Positions 5,136-51,870 of a DNA stretch of 59,352 nucleotides are shown here, piece after piece. The stretch's first letter is position 1, and the number at the start of each line of letters is the position of its first letter. The stretch is from positions 1-59,352 of the IMG/VR virus record IMGVR_UViG_3300037041_001560; one strand, written 5' to 3'. Under the pieces are notes generated by a model. The model worked only from the letters and a program-made list of their open reading frames with translations. It was not told the origin of the DNA and did no database searches. Source of the DNA: a virus. The position numbers and the translations under genes are program-made.

Positions 5136-5161
5136 AAAAATCCGAGCGAACTCGGATTTTT
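5136..5161. terminator. Bidirectional hairpin between the two small minus-strand genes
   Basis: AAAAATCCGAG (5136-5146), loop CGAA, CTCGGATTTTT (5151-5161): a perfect 11-bp stem with A-tract and T-tract, able to work in either direction. It lies between the stop of the 85-residue gene and the ATG of the 80-residue gene, so it may limit readthrough between them. Confidence 0.8.
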
Positions 5162-20480: not shown

Positions 20481-20510
20481 GGGGGCGGTGAAATATCCGC
20501 CCCCATTTTT
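20481..20510 (+). terminator. Strong intrinsic terminator after the capsid gene
   Basis: GGGGGCGG (20481-20488), loop TGAAATAT, CCGCCCCC (20497-20504), then ATTTTT. A perfect 8-bp all-GC stem with T-run, 18 bases after the capsid stop. It would keep capsid mRNA at a higher level than the downstream connector genes. Confidence 0.92.
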
Positions 20511-20571: not shown

Positions 20572-21462
20572 ATGGCAAAATTGTCAGATGTTCAGTTTTC
20601 ACTGAGCGGGGAGCCCCAAAATGGTGGGCCATCGGAAGGAGAGAAAATAGTTATCAATGAAATTCGGGAAGTCACGCCTACTGGTGTGAAATTTCACATT
20701 TTTAAGCTTGTATCTAATACAAGAAAAGGTGGAGTACATGTTCCGGGAATTGATGACGTAATCAATCCTAAAACAGGAAAGATGGAACGGATTCGTTTGC
20801 TTACTGGTGTTGACACTATTTGGCTTAAAGAGCAAAAAGATGTCACTGCTGATTATGCAAAAATGAATCAAAGAAATTTGAGCTTTGTTCGTGGTACTAA
20901 GATTTTACGAATTCCAGACTACGACAATACAGCTCTTGAATTTGCTCGGTTGACTCGACACAATATCGGAAGCCCTGCAAATAAAACAGGAAGTCATTTT
21001 GAATTCTATGAGTACAATCCAGAACGCGAACAACAAGAGTTGCTGCGTAAGGAGGAACTTGAGATAAAAATGGCTATCTTAGCACAAGGAATGCAAGCGG
21101 AAAAAATGAAAAAACATGCTGCATTCTTGGGAATCCGACTCATTGATGACCTCGGGTTGCCAAAATCGGAAGAAGGTTTGCGTAGAGAATATATGATTTA
21201 CGCAAAACGGAATCCAGATTATTTTGGGAAAACGGTAGAATCTAAAGAAGTAGAGTTAGCATGGTTAGTGAAACGAGCTATTTTGGATTCTAAGCTTGAG
21301 ATTGGACGGGAAGCTGGTAAGGTTTATTGGGCAAATGGCGGCGGTTTTATCGCAGCAATTCCCCGAAATGAAAACGTAGAAAGCTACCTAGTTAATCTCG
21401 CTCTTACAAATACCGAAGAAGGGCGTGAATTTAAAGATAGATTAACGAAAGTAACATCGTGA
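20572..21462 (+). CDS. Conserved virion-associated protein of unknown function
   Basis: A 296-residue protein starting MAKLSDVQFSLSGEPQNGGP. Features are a beta-rich first third (GVKFHIFKLVSNTRKGGVHV, RIRLLTGVDTIWLKEQKDV, NLSFVRGTKILRIPDYDNT) and a helical remainder with an Arg/Glu-rich region (YNPEREQQELLRKEELEIK). Located after the capsid terminator and before connector genes, and similar in kind to a protein I recall in this position in Bacteroidota podoviruses. A head-completion role is possible. Confidence 0.55.
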   Translation: MAKLSDVQFSLSGEPQNGGPSEGEKIVINEIREVTPTGVKFHIFKLVSNTRKGGVHVPGIDDVINPKTGKMERIRLLTGVDTIWLKEQKDVTADYAKMNQRNLSFVRGTKILRIPDYDNTALEFARLTRHNIGSPANKTGSHFEFYEYNPEREQQELLRKEELEIKMAILAQGMQAEKMKKHAAFLGIRLIDDLGLPKSEEGLRREYMIYAKRNPDYFGKTVESKEVELAWLVKRAILDSKLEIGREAGKVYWANGGGFIAAIPRNENVESYLVNLALTNTEEGREFKDRLTKVTS

Positions 21463-21468
21463 TGTAAT

Positions 21469-22350
21469 ATGTCGAATAAGTACATATACGTATATCAAAC
21501 CGTTTGCGAACCTAACGGGAAAACATATATCGGAGTACATTCGACAAATAACATTGATGACGGATATATAGGATGTGGCGTTTATAATCAAAAAGACGCT
21601 AAACGTCAGATGTTATTTCACAAAGCTGTAAATAAGAAAGGATATACCTCTTTCCGGAGGTATATCCTTTCTTTTTATGACACCTATGAGGAGGCTTTAG
21701 AAGAGGAGAAATATATTGTTAATGAGGAATGGGTAAAAAATAAATTAAATTACAACACCGCTTTAGGGGGTAGAGGAAACACAACAAAATGGATGGATGA
21801 TGAGCGGAAAGCAAAATGGAAAGAAAACATAAGAACGAAGGTGCTAGAATGGATGGGAAATGGAGGTCTTGAGATTTTACAACAAAAAACCAAAACTCAA
21901 AAAAAGTCAAGAAAATTTGGGGTAAATAATTCTCAATATGGGAAACCATCTCATTTAAGAAGAAAAGTAATAAAATATGATTTAAACAATAATTATATTG
22001 AAACATACGATTCATTACATGACGCTGCTGATAGTGTAAATACTACCCCGGGGAATATAGTTTCTTGTTGTAAAGGCGATTATAAGGTATGCAAAAATCA
22101 TATTTTTAGGTATGAAAAATATAGTGATGACGAATTAAAGGATTTGCAAAAAAAATTAGAAAGGTTTTACTTGCCTAAGTCTTATTGTAGGCCCATTGAT
22201 TGTTACGAAATAAATGGTAAATTTGTAGGGAGATTTATATCTATAAGAGATGCTGCAAAAAAATTAAAAATTACTACAGCATATATAAGTAGAAATTTAT
22301 CTGGTAAAGTAAAAAATTGTAAAGGATATTATTTTAAATACACTAAGTAA
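21469..22350 (+). CDS. GIY-YIG homing endonuclease 1, with NUMOD-type repeats
   Basis: A 293-residue, Lys-rich protein with a GIY-YIG nuclease core near the N-terminus (YIYVYQTVCEPNGKTYIGVH, where YVYQT and YIGVH stand for GIY and YIG; then FHKAVNKKGYTSFRRYIL). C-terminal repeats VIKYDLNNNYIETYDSLHDA and PIDCYEINGKFVGRFISIRD look like NUMOD1-type DNA-binding units, with helix-turn-helix-like IVSCCKGDYK and ISRNLSGKVK. Such free-standing enzymes cut intronless target sites and spread by repair. It is inserted between two virion genes, six bases after one stop and sharing TAATG with the next. A perfect 17-bp hairpin lies within its coding sequence. Confidence 0.9.
   Translation: MSNKYIYVYQTVCEPNGKTYIGVHSTNNIDDGYIGCGVYNQKDAKRQMLFHKAVNKKGYTSFRRYILSFYDTYEEALEEEKYIVNEEWVKNKLNYNTALGGRGNTTKWMDDERKAKWKENIRTKVLEWMGNGGLEILQQKTKTQKKSRKFGVNNSQYGKPSHLRRKVIKYDLNNNYIETYDSLHDAADSVNTTPGNIVSCCKGDYKVCKNHIFRYEKYSDDELKDLQKKLERFYLPKSYCRPIDCYEINGKFVGRFISIRDAAKKLKITTAYISRNLSGKVKNCKGYYFKYTK
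21634..21673. terminator. Perfect 17-bp hairpin inside the homing endonuclease gene
   Basis: AAGAAAGGATATACCTC (21634-21650), loop TTTCCG, GAGGTATATCCTTTCTT (21657-21673), then TTT. The stem is perfect over 17 bp and ends in an A-tract/T-tract pair like a bidirectional terminator. It spans codons for NKKGYTSFRRYILSF, a conserved part of the nuclease domain. A chance origin is unlikely. It might reduce expression of the endonuclease or end transcripts in either direction. Confidence 0.7.
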
Positions 22351-23027
22351 TGGCGTACAATATTGACGATGTATATAATATAGTCCTTTACGCGACAGGG
22401 AAGAATCTACAAAGTGGTTATGTCTCACCTGAAGAATTTAATCTCGTTATCAATCAAGCTGGCCGTAGCTATGCTTCCTACTTGTTAGGGAACTTTCAAC
22501 AATATCAACCGGGAAGACCCCAAGCTAGGGTTGAATTTGGGCAGAACACGGTAGTTCGTCAGCGCTTGACTCCAATTATTTATGGATATAATTTAAGTGT
22601 TGACCCTTCCGGGTTCTCCCCATACCCCGGTGATTATTTACAACAAGACGCTATGTGGAGCTTCTATGGATATAATAGAATCCGGGAAGTGCAGCAACAA
22701 TATTTTTATTCTATTTACAACTCTGTTATTGACCCAGTTGGTGGTTGGCCAGTATATATGCTTGAGTATGATGGATTTCGGTTCTTCCCAAATAATATAA
22801 ACAGAGCTAAATTATCATACGTTAGAAACCCTCCAGATATGATTTGGGGTTATACATTGAACGGGAACGGAATCCCCGTCTACAATCCTGCTTCTAGCAC
22901 ACAACCAGTGTGGGATGACGCTTCAATCCTTGAAATTATTGTGCGAGCTCTTCGTATAATTGGAGTAAATTTGCAATATAACGAAGTGAGCGCATACGCT
23001 AACGAAATAAAACAAGTTGGTCAATAA
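22350..23027 (+). CDS. Head-tail connector-like virion protein
   Basis: A 225-residue protein starting MAYNIDDVYNIVLYATGKNL. The N-terminal part is helical (SPEEFNLVINQAGRSYASYL) and the second half beta-rich (RLTPIIYGYNLSVDPSGFSP; VYMLEYDGFRFFPNNINRAK). Its style is similar to the 210-residue protein at 25694 and the 256-residue protein at 27525: a helical start with (V/L)NxAxxxx, then a beta domain. Connector proteins and tail adaptors often look like this. TAATG coupling to both neighbours. Role from context. Confidence 0.6.
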   Translation: MAYNIDDVYNIVLYATGKNLQSGYVSPEEFNLVINQAGRSYASYLLGNFQQYQPGRPQARVEFGQNTVVRQRLTPIIYGYNLSVDPSGFSPYPGDYLQQDAMWSFYGYNRIREVQQQYFYSIYNSVIDPVGGWPVYMLEYDGFRFFPNNINRAKLSYVRNPPDMIWGYTLNGNGIPVYNPASSTQPVWDDASILEIIVRALRIIGVNLQYNEVSAYANEIKQVGQ

Positions 23028-25693: not shown

Positions 25694-26326
25694 ATGACAA
25701 GAGCAGAGTTCATAGAGCGCACCCTTCGCCAGATTTATGGCGGTTATGTATCGGAGGATTCTTCGATTACACCCATGCTTGTAAATTCATGGTTGAATGA
25801 TGCTATTGCTCTTGCTGCAAAGACAAACTATACTGACAACCTTAAGTTGGATGGTATTGGTTATGTAAATAATTCTTTTTATACGACATTTAAGGGAATT
25901 GCTCCCACATTAGACGAAATAAATCTTTGGAAATTGCAGCTTCCTCAGATTCCTGTTGGAATTGGAGCCAATGAGGGAATTAATACCATTGTGTTTAAGG
26001 ACGGAAACGGAACAATTAGTTTCCCATTAATTCCCCTGACTGCAAACCAAAAGACATATTTCCGCTCTATGCGTCCTATCCCAAATAAGACGCTTTATTA
26101 TAATGAGGGGGAATTCGTGTATGTCGTTACTTCCCTAGCATTAAACAACTACACTGCAAGCGTTACAATGGTCAGCGGAGGAGATTCATCAAACCTGAAC
26201 AGCACCCTAAACGTGCCTTCAGATTATTGGCCAGCTATGGTTGCATATGTGCAGCAGCAGTTGATGCTGATGAAAACGACTACTAAGGATTTGGCCTCGG
26301 ACGGGCAAGATTTAGCTATAAACTAA
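25694..26326 (+). CDS. Connector or tail-adaptor-like virion protein
   Basis: A 210-residue protein beginning MTRAEFIERTLRQIYGGYVS with VNSWLNDAIALAAKTNY, the (L/V)Nx(W/A)LNDAI helix typical of phage connector proteins, followed by a beta-rich central region and a C-terminal helix ending in DLASDGQDLAIN. It is in the head-tail gene group and followed with TAATG by a homing endonuclease. Role from context. Confidence 0.6.
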   Translation: MTRAEFIERTLRQIYGGYVSEDSSITPMLVNSWLNDAIALAAKTNYTDNLKLDGIGYVNNSFYTTFKGIAPTLDEINLWKLQLPQIPVGIGANEGINTIVFKDGNGTISFPLIPLTANQKTYFRSMRPIPNKTLYYNEGEFVYVVTSLALNNYTASVTMVSGGDSSNLNSTLNVPSDYWPAMVAYVQQQLMLMKTTTKDLASDGQDLAIN

Positions 26327-27141
26327 TGGCATACGTTTACAGACATATAAGGCTTGATAAAAACCAGCCATTTTATATTGGTATTTCTAAAAATGATAAT
26401 TACGGTAATTGCAAAAGGGCTAAATCTTGTACTGGGAGGAATTTTATTTGGAAAAGAATAGTTGATAAAACTGATTATGAGGTTGAGGTAATTATGGATG
26501 GATTAACTTGGGAAGAAGCTAAACAAAAAGAAATAGAATTTATTAAACTTTACGGTAGGTTAAATAGCGGGACTGGTATTTTGTCGAATATGACTGACGG
26601 AGGAGAAGGCGGTCTTGGGGTTGTTGTTAGCGAAATTACTAGAAAGAAGTTAAGCGAAAATTCTAAAAAAAAGGGGATTAGCAAGGAAACTAGGGAAAAG
26701 ATGGCTTCCAAACTTAGGGGTCGCCCATTACCTGATTGGCAAAAAGAATTGCTTAGAAAAGCGGCAATAGGCAAAGATGTATATTGGTCTAAAAAAAAAG
26801 TTGACCAATATGATTTAAATGGGGAATTTGTACAAACATTTAATAGTATTAATGATGCCGCAAGATGTTTGAATCTTCAACAAGCCAATATAGGTAAGGT
26901 ATTAAAAAAGAAAAGAAGTCATACCGGGGGCTATATTTTTGTTTATAGTGGGAAACCTTTTAGCTTAGGTGAATTAACATTTCGCAGAAAAAATGTAAGG
27001 AAAAAGGTTGTAAATTTGGCCACTGGCGAAGTATATGATACCATGTCTGAAGCTGCTAAAAAAAATGGTATAAAATATGATTTTTTTAAACGTATGATGA
27101 AAAAGAAGAATGGCGAATTTGAATATTTATCTGTAAATTAA
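26326..27141 (+). CDS. GIY-YIG homing endonuclease 2 with NUMOD3 and NUMOD1 modules
   Basis: A 271-residue, Lys-rich protein. The nuclease starts with AYVYRHIRLDKNQPFYIGIS (YVYxH and FYIGI as the two signature strands), then GRNFIWKRIVDKTDYEVEVI and a catalytic-type Glu in EAKQKEIEFIKLYGRLNSGT. TDGGEGGLGVVVSEITRKKL and ETREKMASKLRGR are NUMOD3-like helical DNA-binding repeats; VDQYDLNGEFVQTFNSINDA is a NUMOD1-like unit, with a last block KKVVNLATGEVYDTMSEAAK. It shares TAATG with the preceding gene. Probably mobile within related phages. Confidence 0.9.
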   Translation: MAYVYRHIRLDKNQPFYIGISKNDNYGNCKRAKSCTGRNFIWKRIVDKTDYEVEVIMDGLTWEEAKQKEIEFIKLYGRLNSGTGILSNMTDGGEGGLGVVVSEITRKKLSENSKKKGISKETREKMASKLRGRPLPDWQKELLRKAAIGKDVYWSKKKVDQYDLNGEFVQTFNSINDAARCLNLQQANIGKVLKKKRSHTGGYIFVYSGKPFSLGELTFRRKNVRKKVVNLATGEVYDTMSEAAKKNGIKYDFFKRMMKKKNGEFEYLSVN

Positions 27142-43900: not shown

Positions 43901-44421
43901 TGCCACTAACAGTAGCCCAGATAATTGACATTGCCAAGATATCGCAGTATCTGGCGCAGAATGATGTTCTGAAGGGAAATCTTTTCTCTCCTCCTGTGGC
44001 TAGAACTACGCCGCAGATTCTTTATTTAGAGCGCAAGGCAGTAGAATGGATGTACAATATTGACCCAGCGAACACTTCCCTTGTACAAACCTCTCAATAT
44101 CTATACAGCCTTTGCAGAGGATATAATTTGCAAGCACAACAAATTTCGGGAACTGCTGGTGCAATATCTCCAGTCGTCCCTGCTCAGATTCCAAATCCAT
44201 ATGATTTTGAAGTAACAGCTAGTTCGTTGATTGCAGATGGTCAATCAACTGTTACGTTAAATGCATTTATAGGATTCAACGTATTATTTGTTCGCAACGG
44301 AATACCTCAATCTACTATCAATACTGGGGGAAGCTACTACTCTTGGGTAAAGGCTACTGGTGTATTTACCATTTCCCCGGCAGCGGTATTAGGAGAAAGT
44401 TTTGCCATATACCCAATTTAA
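43900..44421 (+). CDS. Conserved virion protein, partner of the preceding gene
   Basis: A 173-residue protein starting MPLTVAQIIDIAKISQYLAQ, with helical N-terminal half (YLERKAVEWMYNIDPAN; YLYSLCRGYNLQAQQIS) and C-terminal beta half (NPYDFEVTASSLIADGQSTV; FIGFNVLFVRNGIPQST; SYYSWVKATGVFTISPAAVL). The two halves joined by a Pro-rich link are similar to proteins that I remember paired with the preceding one in other phages, usually just before the tail-fibre gene. A homing endonuclease follows with TAATG. Confidence 0.62.
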   Translation: MPLTVAQIIDIAKISQYLAQNDVLKGNLFSPPVARTTPQILYLERKAVEWMYNIDPANTSLVQTSQYLYSLCRGYNLQAQQISGTAGAISPVVPAQIPNPYDFEVTASSLIADGQSTVTLNAFIGFNVLFVRNGIPQSTINTGGSYYSWVKATGVFTISPAAVLGESFAIYPI

Positions 44422-45176
44422 TGGATTCATTGTTAAATGATATAAAACATTGGGTTATCTACAAAATAACCAGTCCAACCGAAAGAGTTTATATAGGCAA
44501 AACGTCTAATTGGAATAATAGATATTCTAATTATAAGCACTTTACGGTAGCAAAACAAGTTCATAAACAAAGAATGTTGTATGCATCTTTGCTAAAATAC
44601 GGGTTCGAATCTCATAAATTAGAAAAAATAGATGAATTTGATTCTGATGCAAATTATTGTTCAGGGAAGGAGATGTTTTGGATAAGGTCTTATATGTCAA
44701 ATAACTGTAAATATCCAGAAATTGGTGGGATGAATTTGACTGATGGTGGTGATGGTAATCTTGGATGGAAAAGACCCAAAGAGAGTATTGAAGAAATAAG
44801 AAAAAAAAATACAGGTAAGGTTAGGTCAAAAGAAATTAGAGAAAAAATGTCTAAAAGTAAAATAGGCAATAAAAATGGTTGTGGTAAAAAATTAACAGAA
44901 GAGCATAAAAGAATTTTATCAGAATGTAATAAAAATAAAAAAGGAGATATTAAGTTTAAAAAAACGTGTAAAGATAGGGCTGCAAGAATAAACAATCAAA
45001 ATGGAAAGATAATAATACATTTAGACGAACATAATAATATAATTAATACATTTGATTTTTTATATGAAGCAGCATATTTTTTTGAAGTATCTGAAAGTGC
45101 AATGAGAGATTATATCAATAAAAAAAGAGTGTCTAAAAAAATAAGTGCCATTTTGAAATATAAAAAAGATTTGTGA
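44421..45176 (+). CDS. GIY-YIG homing endonuclease 3 with NUMOD3 repeats
   Basis: A 251-residue, Lys/Asn-rich protein; ATG 44421 shares a base with the preceding stop (TAATG). An earlier in-frame start at 44343 would lie inside the virion gene. WVIYKITSPTERVYIGKTSN is the GIY-YIG core, with LYASLLKYGFESHKLEKIDE following. NUMOD3-type repeats are SIEEIRKKNTGKVRSKEIRE and KMSKSKIGNKNGCGKKLTEE. The C-terminus has a NUMOD1-like unit with HLDEHNNIINTFDFLYEAAY. AT content is visibly higher than the flanks and GGGAA is rare here (about one in 756 bases), so it may be a recent arrival. Confidence 0.88.
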   Translation: MDSLLNDIKHWVIYKITSPTERVYIGKTSNWNNRYSNYKHFTVAKQVHKQRMLYASLLKYGFESHKLEKIDEFDSDANYCSGKEMFWIRSYMSNNCKYPEIGGMNLTDGGDGNLGWKRPKESIEEIRKKNTGKVRSKEIREKMSKSKIGNKNGCGKKLTEEHKRILSECNKNKKGDIKFKKTCKDRAARINNQNGKIIIHLDEHNNIINTFDFLYEAAYFFEVSESAMRDYINKKRVSKKISAILKYKKDL

Positions 45177-51844: not shown

Positions 51845-51870
51845 ACCCCACCCGTAGAAACGGGCGGGGT
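51845..51870. terminator. Bidirectional terminator between convergent blocks
   Basis: ACCCCACCCGT (51845-51855), loop AGAA, ACGGGCGGGGT (51860-51870): 10 of 11 positions pair. It separates the plus-strand late block from the minus-strand early block, whose last gene ends at 51900. Confidence 0.85.

Follow-up and report, generated by a model that had tools for sequence, protein, structure and literature searches.

A perfect 17-bp hairpin in the coding sequence of an inserted phage homing-type endonuclease gene: a candidate internal attenuator

The endonuclease gene, its neighbours and its hairpin

We analysed a window of 59 352 nt, comprising positions 1 to 59 352 of the IMG/VR virus record IMGVR_UViG_3300037041_001560. 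On its plus strand, at 21469..22350, lies an intact, free-standing gene for a homing-type endonuclease of 293 aa, in which Pfam and PHROG searches identified an N-terminal GIY-YIG domain and C-terminal NUMOD1/I-HmuI-like repeats. The GIY-YIG domain was barely above its Pfam cut-off (PF01541, 24.5 bits against 22.6), and the two NUMOD-type domains scored 41.1 (PF07453) and 41.3 bits (PF22083). Both the GIY-YIG domain and the NUMOD-type DNA-binding repeats of a GIY-YIG homing endonuclease are therefore present in this ORF, which also matched the homing endonuclease family phrog_314 (1.2e-27). The protein was matched by 777 phage records, all at less than 60% identity, in searches that may have omitted the records closest to the genome of the window. 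The terminases closest to that of the window came from Flavobacterium and Cellulophaga phages, with 26.6% identity in the best records, which makes a flavobacterium the probable host. Two more endonuclease-like genes with matches to phrog_314 were found in the window at 26326–27141 and 44343–45176.

The gene lies between an upstream gene encoding a 296-aa protein with no family match (20572..21462, plus strand) and a downstream gene encoding a 225-aa protein that matches phrog_14543, a virion structural protein (22350..23027, plus strand). The intergenic room on its 5′ side is 6 nt, and on its 3′ side the stop codon overlaps the downstream ATG (TAATG); the endonuclease-like gene at 26326–27141 for its part overlaps the end of the gene before it. 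Of 27 related loci, which comprise 20 distinct sequences, 24 (17 distinct) had an empty junction between the two flanking genes, and the other three, namely the window and the loci L001 and L004, had an endonuclease gene there. Because the flanking genes are adjacent in so many relatives, the endonuclease gene is, as judged from gene order, a free-standing insertion in a run of virion genes, and the sequence-only reading of this DNA, which had placed a terminator-like hairpin in a homing endonuclease gene and had taken that gene for an insertion among virion genes, was borne out on the second point by the empty junctions.

Three sister phages (L054/L100, L055/L099 and L056/L101), whose upstream proteins were 99, 99 and 94% identical to that of the window, also had the empty junction. 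At the start of the downstream gene, a patch of ∼140 nt (22350..22491, plus strand) diverged from all three sisters, with an identity of 64–72% over 150 nt, and past this patch the identity was 95% to L054 and L055 and 86% to L056. The sisters also differed from each other in the patch, where L054 and L055 were 69–80% identical before reaching 97–99%, and the comparisons with L056 gave 80–93% past the patch. The divergent patch looks like the footprint of repeated gene conversion beside a putative cut site.

The hairpin spans 21634–21673 on the coding strand, beginning 165 nt into the endonuclease frame and covering codons 56–69 of 293. It consists, by sequence and folding, of a 5′ arm at 21634..21650 (AAGAAAGGATATACCTC, codons 56–61), the loop TTTCCG at 21651..21656, which is reduced to 4 nt if the inner pair forms, and a 3′ arm at 21657..21673 (GAGGTATATCCTTTCTT, codons 63–69), all on the plus strand. 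All 17 of the 17 pairs of the inverted repeat are Watson-Crick pairs, and the repeat with its 6-nt loop is followed by TTTATG. Within it, a core stem (21640–21667) is followed by the U-rich tract TTTCTTTTT at 21668..21676 on the same strand. A perfect 17-bp hairpin had been claimed for this position beforehand, and we found the sequence to be exactly as described. It was the longest perfect hairpin in the window, the next ones being 13 and 12 bp long. Folding of a 52-nt RNA segment containing the hairpin predicted 18 pairs with a 4-nt loop at −26.7 kcal/mol, corresponding to a z-score of −8.0, and none of 200 dinucleotide shuffles equalled this fold. No RNA family of the Rfam type, introns included, was found in the window at gathering scores.

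The stem had also been said to fall within a conserved stretch of the GIY-YIG domain and to leave the protein undisturbed. The first half of this description agrees with our alignments, in which the residues G58, F62, I66 and L67 at the stem were near-invariant, but the second half does not. Residue 57, which is encoded in the stem, is a lysine in the window, while the 30 ungapped sequences among 35 other distinct homologues had Y (22), H (4), E (2), R (1) or L (1) at this position and none had K.

Chance tests and orthologous genes

Because the hairpin sits in coding sequence, a suitable null has to preserve the protein, and codons were drawn from the window's own usage. When the 17-residue segment was recoded synonymously 20 000 times, no sequence reached 17 bp or the observed energy, and none of 6000 codon permutations of the endonuclease gene reached 17 bp, with 14 bp as the longest stem. 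When 441 distinct ORFs from all loci were each subjected to 60 synonymous shuffles, the longest stem was again 14 bp, and 60 rounds of first-order Markov resampling of the window gave at most 13 bp, which was also the length of the second-longest perfect stem among the 441 ORFs as observed. A chance origin of the 17-bp stem is contradicted by the recoding, permutation and shuffle nulls alike and was rejected, keeping practically no probability.

Among 51 endonuclease-like ORFs, a set that leaves aside L004 as its frame runs off the contig, the window gene was the only one with a perfect stem longer than 10 bp, and there was no excess of perfect stems in these genes as a class. We also compared the stem register in 43 of the 51 loci from one scan with endonuclease queries (eight exact duplicates, L032–L036 and L051–L053, were dropped), and the distant homologues did not have a stem in the same register. 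The stem was therefore rejected as a general property of GIY-YIG genes.

The endonuclease genes of the window, L001 and L004 were compared in a codon alignment of the hairpin region. Of the 17 Watson-Crick pairs, 12 remain in L004 at the same codons, nine of them contiguous, and two positions are compensated, one A-T pair having become G-C and one C-G pair T-A. Its fold was unusually stable for its protein, as only 22 of 20 000 recodings folded as well, but it had no good U-tract and its terminator score (see below) was −35. When the same number of substitutions was placed at random, two compensatory pairs arose in 4.5% of trials (P ∼0.045) and the observed number of kept pairs in 6.8% (P ∼0.068), so that the covariation between the window and L004 is weak by itself. 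By protein, L001 is closer to the window than L004 is; six of its 17 pairs are broken and a seventh has become G-U, its fold was ordinary, with 7574 of 20 000 recodings as good, and its terminator score was −32.5. The stem looked for in homologues was thus present in L004, with 9 bp, but mostly gone in L001, and the covariation proposed as a check appeared in two pairs but with weak statistics. No further close orthologues were found in scans of viral_contigs with endonuclease queries, in which L123 and L177 were the same contig as L004, or in scans of genome_contigs.

The two orthologous loci differ in how the gene begins. In L004 there is next to no intergenic room before the endonuclease gene, and its frame has no ATG at the expected start (L004:2492–2540); translation may begin at an ATA where the frame opens, on the stop codon of the gene before it, or further on at the GTG at 2537. 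L001 has another hairpin, of 11 bp, in the space that separates its start codon from the upstream gene (L001:1345–1373), and the same junction in L105 has a similar one, these hairpins being 11–12 bp long and without a good U-tract. Because L105 has no endonuclease gene at this junction and yet has the hairpin, the junction hairpin of L001 and L105 is, on this comparison, older than the endonuclease gene or independent of it.

Terminator scores, transcription stops and known precedents

Intrinsic terminators were scored with a formula of the d'Aubenton-Carafa type. The core stem at 21640–21667 scored 18.2 and the best sub-stem, 21636–21671 followed by TTTTTATG, scored 18.9, the higher of the two positive plus-strand sites that this formula gave in the 59-kb window. 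A G+C-paired stem, a small loop and a U-tract are all present in the 5′ coding part of the gene, at codons 56–69, and the description of the hairpin as terminator-like was upheld in that, by this score, it ranked above every other plus-strand candidate for an intrinsic terminator in the window. A simpler pattern scan for terminators did not list the hairpin at 21634–21673. The strongest terminator-like sites of the window were both on the minus strand, at 51846–51869 (48.0) and 5140–5157 (29.6). Applied to phage T4, the same formula gave 6.4 for segF and −31 for mobE; because mobE has a reported terminator, the score ranks sites but proves nothing and is a poor guide. Promoter scans for the downstream virion genes, made with a Bacteroidota promoter motif, gave results at or near chance under promoter rules that are uncertain for this host.

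Positive scores were found in three of the 51 endonuclease-like ORFs and in four of 390 other ORFs. Only the window gene and T4 segF had theirs truly inside the frame among the 51, since the third, L111, sits just 5′ of the true ATG, and three of the four sites in the other ORFs begin at nt 2 of a frame that has probably been extended too far. These counts are therefore no evidence for an enrichment of internal terminators in endonuclease-like genes.

A further terminator-like hairpin follows the capsid-type gene at 20481..20504 on the plus strand and is found in every relative with a visible site. The end of the capsid gene was visible in 26 of 27 loci, and a hairpin of −10 kcal/mol or lower lay within 140 nt of it in all 26. 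Among distinct loci (L099–L122, with L004 included), the hairpin was found in 20 of 20, with a sequence that changes between loci. Another GIY-YIG-like gene stood directly behind it in 11 of the 20, and all 11 of these genes begin with MG[VLA]IYKI. Because the hairpin is also found in the nine loci without an endonuclease gene behind it, it belongs, by this distribution, to the capsid gene. In two of the loci, L104 and L107, the tail of the hairpin and the start of the endonuclease gene are partly duplicated in tandem within the first 150 nt past the capsid stop codon, with two copies of ATGGGTGCAATTTATAAAA, a pattern that resembles imprecise insertion. As a suggestion only, from few independent cases, the endonuclease genes of this group may tend to sit behind stops.

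The internal position of the hairpin had been regarded as a departure from known endonuclease genes. This did not hold, because intrinsic terminators have been reported in the 5′ coding regions of T4 mobE and segF, with ∼30% termination for mobE (PMC2988022), and in the T4 record we located the hairpins at codons 11–18 of mobE and 16–22 of segF. An internal terminator in an endonuclease gene thus has printed precedent, and the terminator-like hairpin of the window adds a strong further case to an arrangement already known. Like the window gene, segF is a free-standing GIY-YIG gene with a terminator-like hairpin in its coding sequence near the start, but it has 8 pairs at codons 16–22 and a core score of 6.4, whereas the window has 17 pairs at codons 56–69 and a score of 18.9, with the hairpin in the conserved GIY-YIG core and in a different phage group. 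T4 mobE similarly lies as an insertion between two genes that are transcribed together, with a hairpin in its 5′ coding region; it differs in belonging to the HNH family and in having 9 pairs, at codons 11–18, with a weak U-tract. A promoter before nrdB was also reported to spare the gene downstream of mobE, in contrast to the near-chance promoter scans at the window.

Competing explanations and the candidate attenuator

We tentatively favour, at somewhat under an even chance, the reading of the hairpin as a partial, translation-sensitive intrinsic terminator that acts as an attenuator of endonuclease transcription. RNA polymerase arriving from the genes on the capsid side would transcribe the hairpin, and a fraction of the transcripts would end in the U-tract, leaving little full-length endonuclease message, while a ribosome following closely on the endonuclease frame would hold the hairpin open, so that the downstream virion genes would still be transcribed. 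The translation-sensitive part of this reading is based on reports that a closely following ribosome can block the formation of terminator hairpins (PMC5021804, PMC10135430). The perfection of the stem is likely to have its origin in template switching and may well have been kept later.

The attenuator reading is favoured by a stem beyond the reach of codon-preserving nulls, the top plus-strand score, the stable fold of L004 and the stop-adjacent settings of the genes. Counted against it are the six pairs lost in L001 and the poor U-tract of L004, because of which terminator activity would not be conserved over the three orthologues. A strong terminator would, moreover, cut off the virion genes, for which no promoter beyond chance was seen. 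The miss by the simple scan, the score of −31 for mobE, the lack of a class-wide excess of stems and the post-capsid hairpins without an endonuclease gene in 9 of 20 loci were also counted on this side.

The main rival, possible but less probable, is that the hairpin is a mutational by-product, in which an imperfect palindrome arising from the codons for GYxxFxx(Y/H)IL was perfected by a replication template switch copying one arm, with no function or at a tolerated cost. Template switching has been described as a process that creates or perfects RNA stems (PMC8794818), and the window resembles those cases in having a perfect stem that may have arisen in one mutational step, although here the stem is inside a phage protein gene. 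The stem changes seen in the window only, that is, differing from both L001 and L004 (positions 4, 6 and 15), without exception fall in the 5′ arm and add a pair, and two of the three turn the usual Y/H at residue 57 into K, which a protein-sparing, purely regulatory selection would avoid. The core GGATAT/ATATCC is, in addition, largely set by shared residues and codons, and the stem is not retained in L001. A template switch nevertheless leaves unexplained the stable, partly different stem at the same place in L004, matched by 22 of 20 000 recodings, as well as the U-rich tail, though the latter follows in part from Ser-Phe-Tyr codons that L001 has as well. Selection too would be expected to change the 5′ arm, because the bases on the other side are part of Leu and Ser codons; the one-armed changes fit both processes alike, and the sequence does not separate them.

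We consider it unlikely that the hairpin acts only after transcription, either by ending or protecting the upstream virion message through RNA processing or stability, or by slowing ribosomes on the endonuclease frame. The stem is very stable, L001 and L105 have hairpins lacking a good U-tract at this gene junction, and RNase E processing has been reported for some T4 endonuclease messages (PMC2988022). No known RNA family matches the window, however, nothing in the sequence indicates a specific nuclease, and translating ribosomes would melt the stem. The classical repression in which a hairpin hides the ribosome-binding site of the endonuclease, reported for I-TevI, I-TevII, I-TevIII, segB and Aeh1 mobE (PMC2988022), would similarly limit endonuclease expression, but those hairpins are at the translation start, whereas the window stem is 165 nt inside the frame and overlaps neither the Shine-Dalgarno sequence nor the start codon of the gene, and the GGAGG of its 3′ arm is 16 nt from the next ATG, which is out of frame; this explanation was rejected by position and is hardly credible.

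In L001 a hairpin lies 5′ of the endonuclease start, and in the window and L004, which have nearly no intergenic room, the hairpin is inside the gene. A bolder extension of the attenuator reading, which we regard as improbable, is that the free-standing endonucleases of this group depend on a position behind a transcription stop. Most would sit behind the capsid terminator and one behind the junction hairpin, and where intergenic space was lacking the stop would have evolved inside the gene's own most conserved catalytic codons, at the cost of the usual Y/H residue.

If the hairpin does not terminate transcription, it would still be a clean natural palindrome in coding sequence, probably perfected by template switching. 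If it does terminate, it would be a far longer example of the T4-type internal terminators, in a phage with a Flavobacterium/Cellulophaga-like terminase, and would illustrate how a selfish gene may settle in an operon of virion genes while being expressed at a low level, and how conserved codons can accommodate a stop signal.
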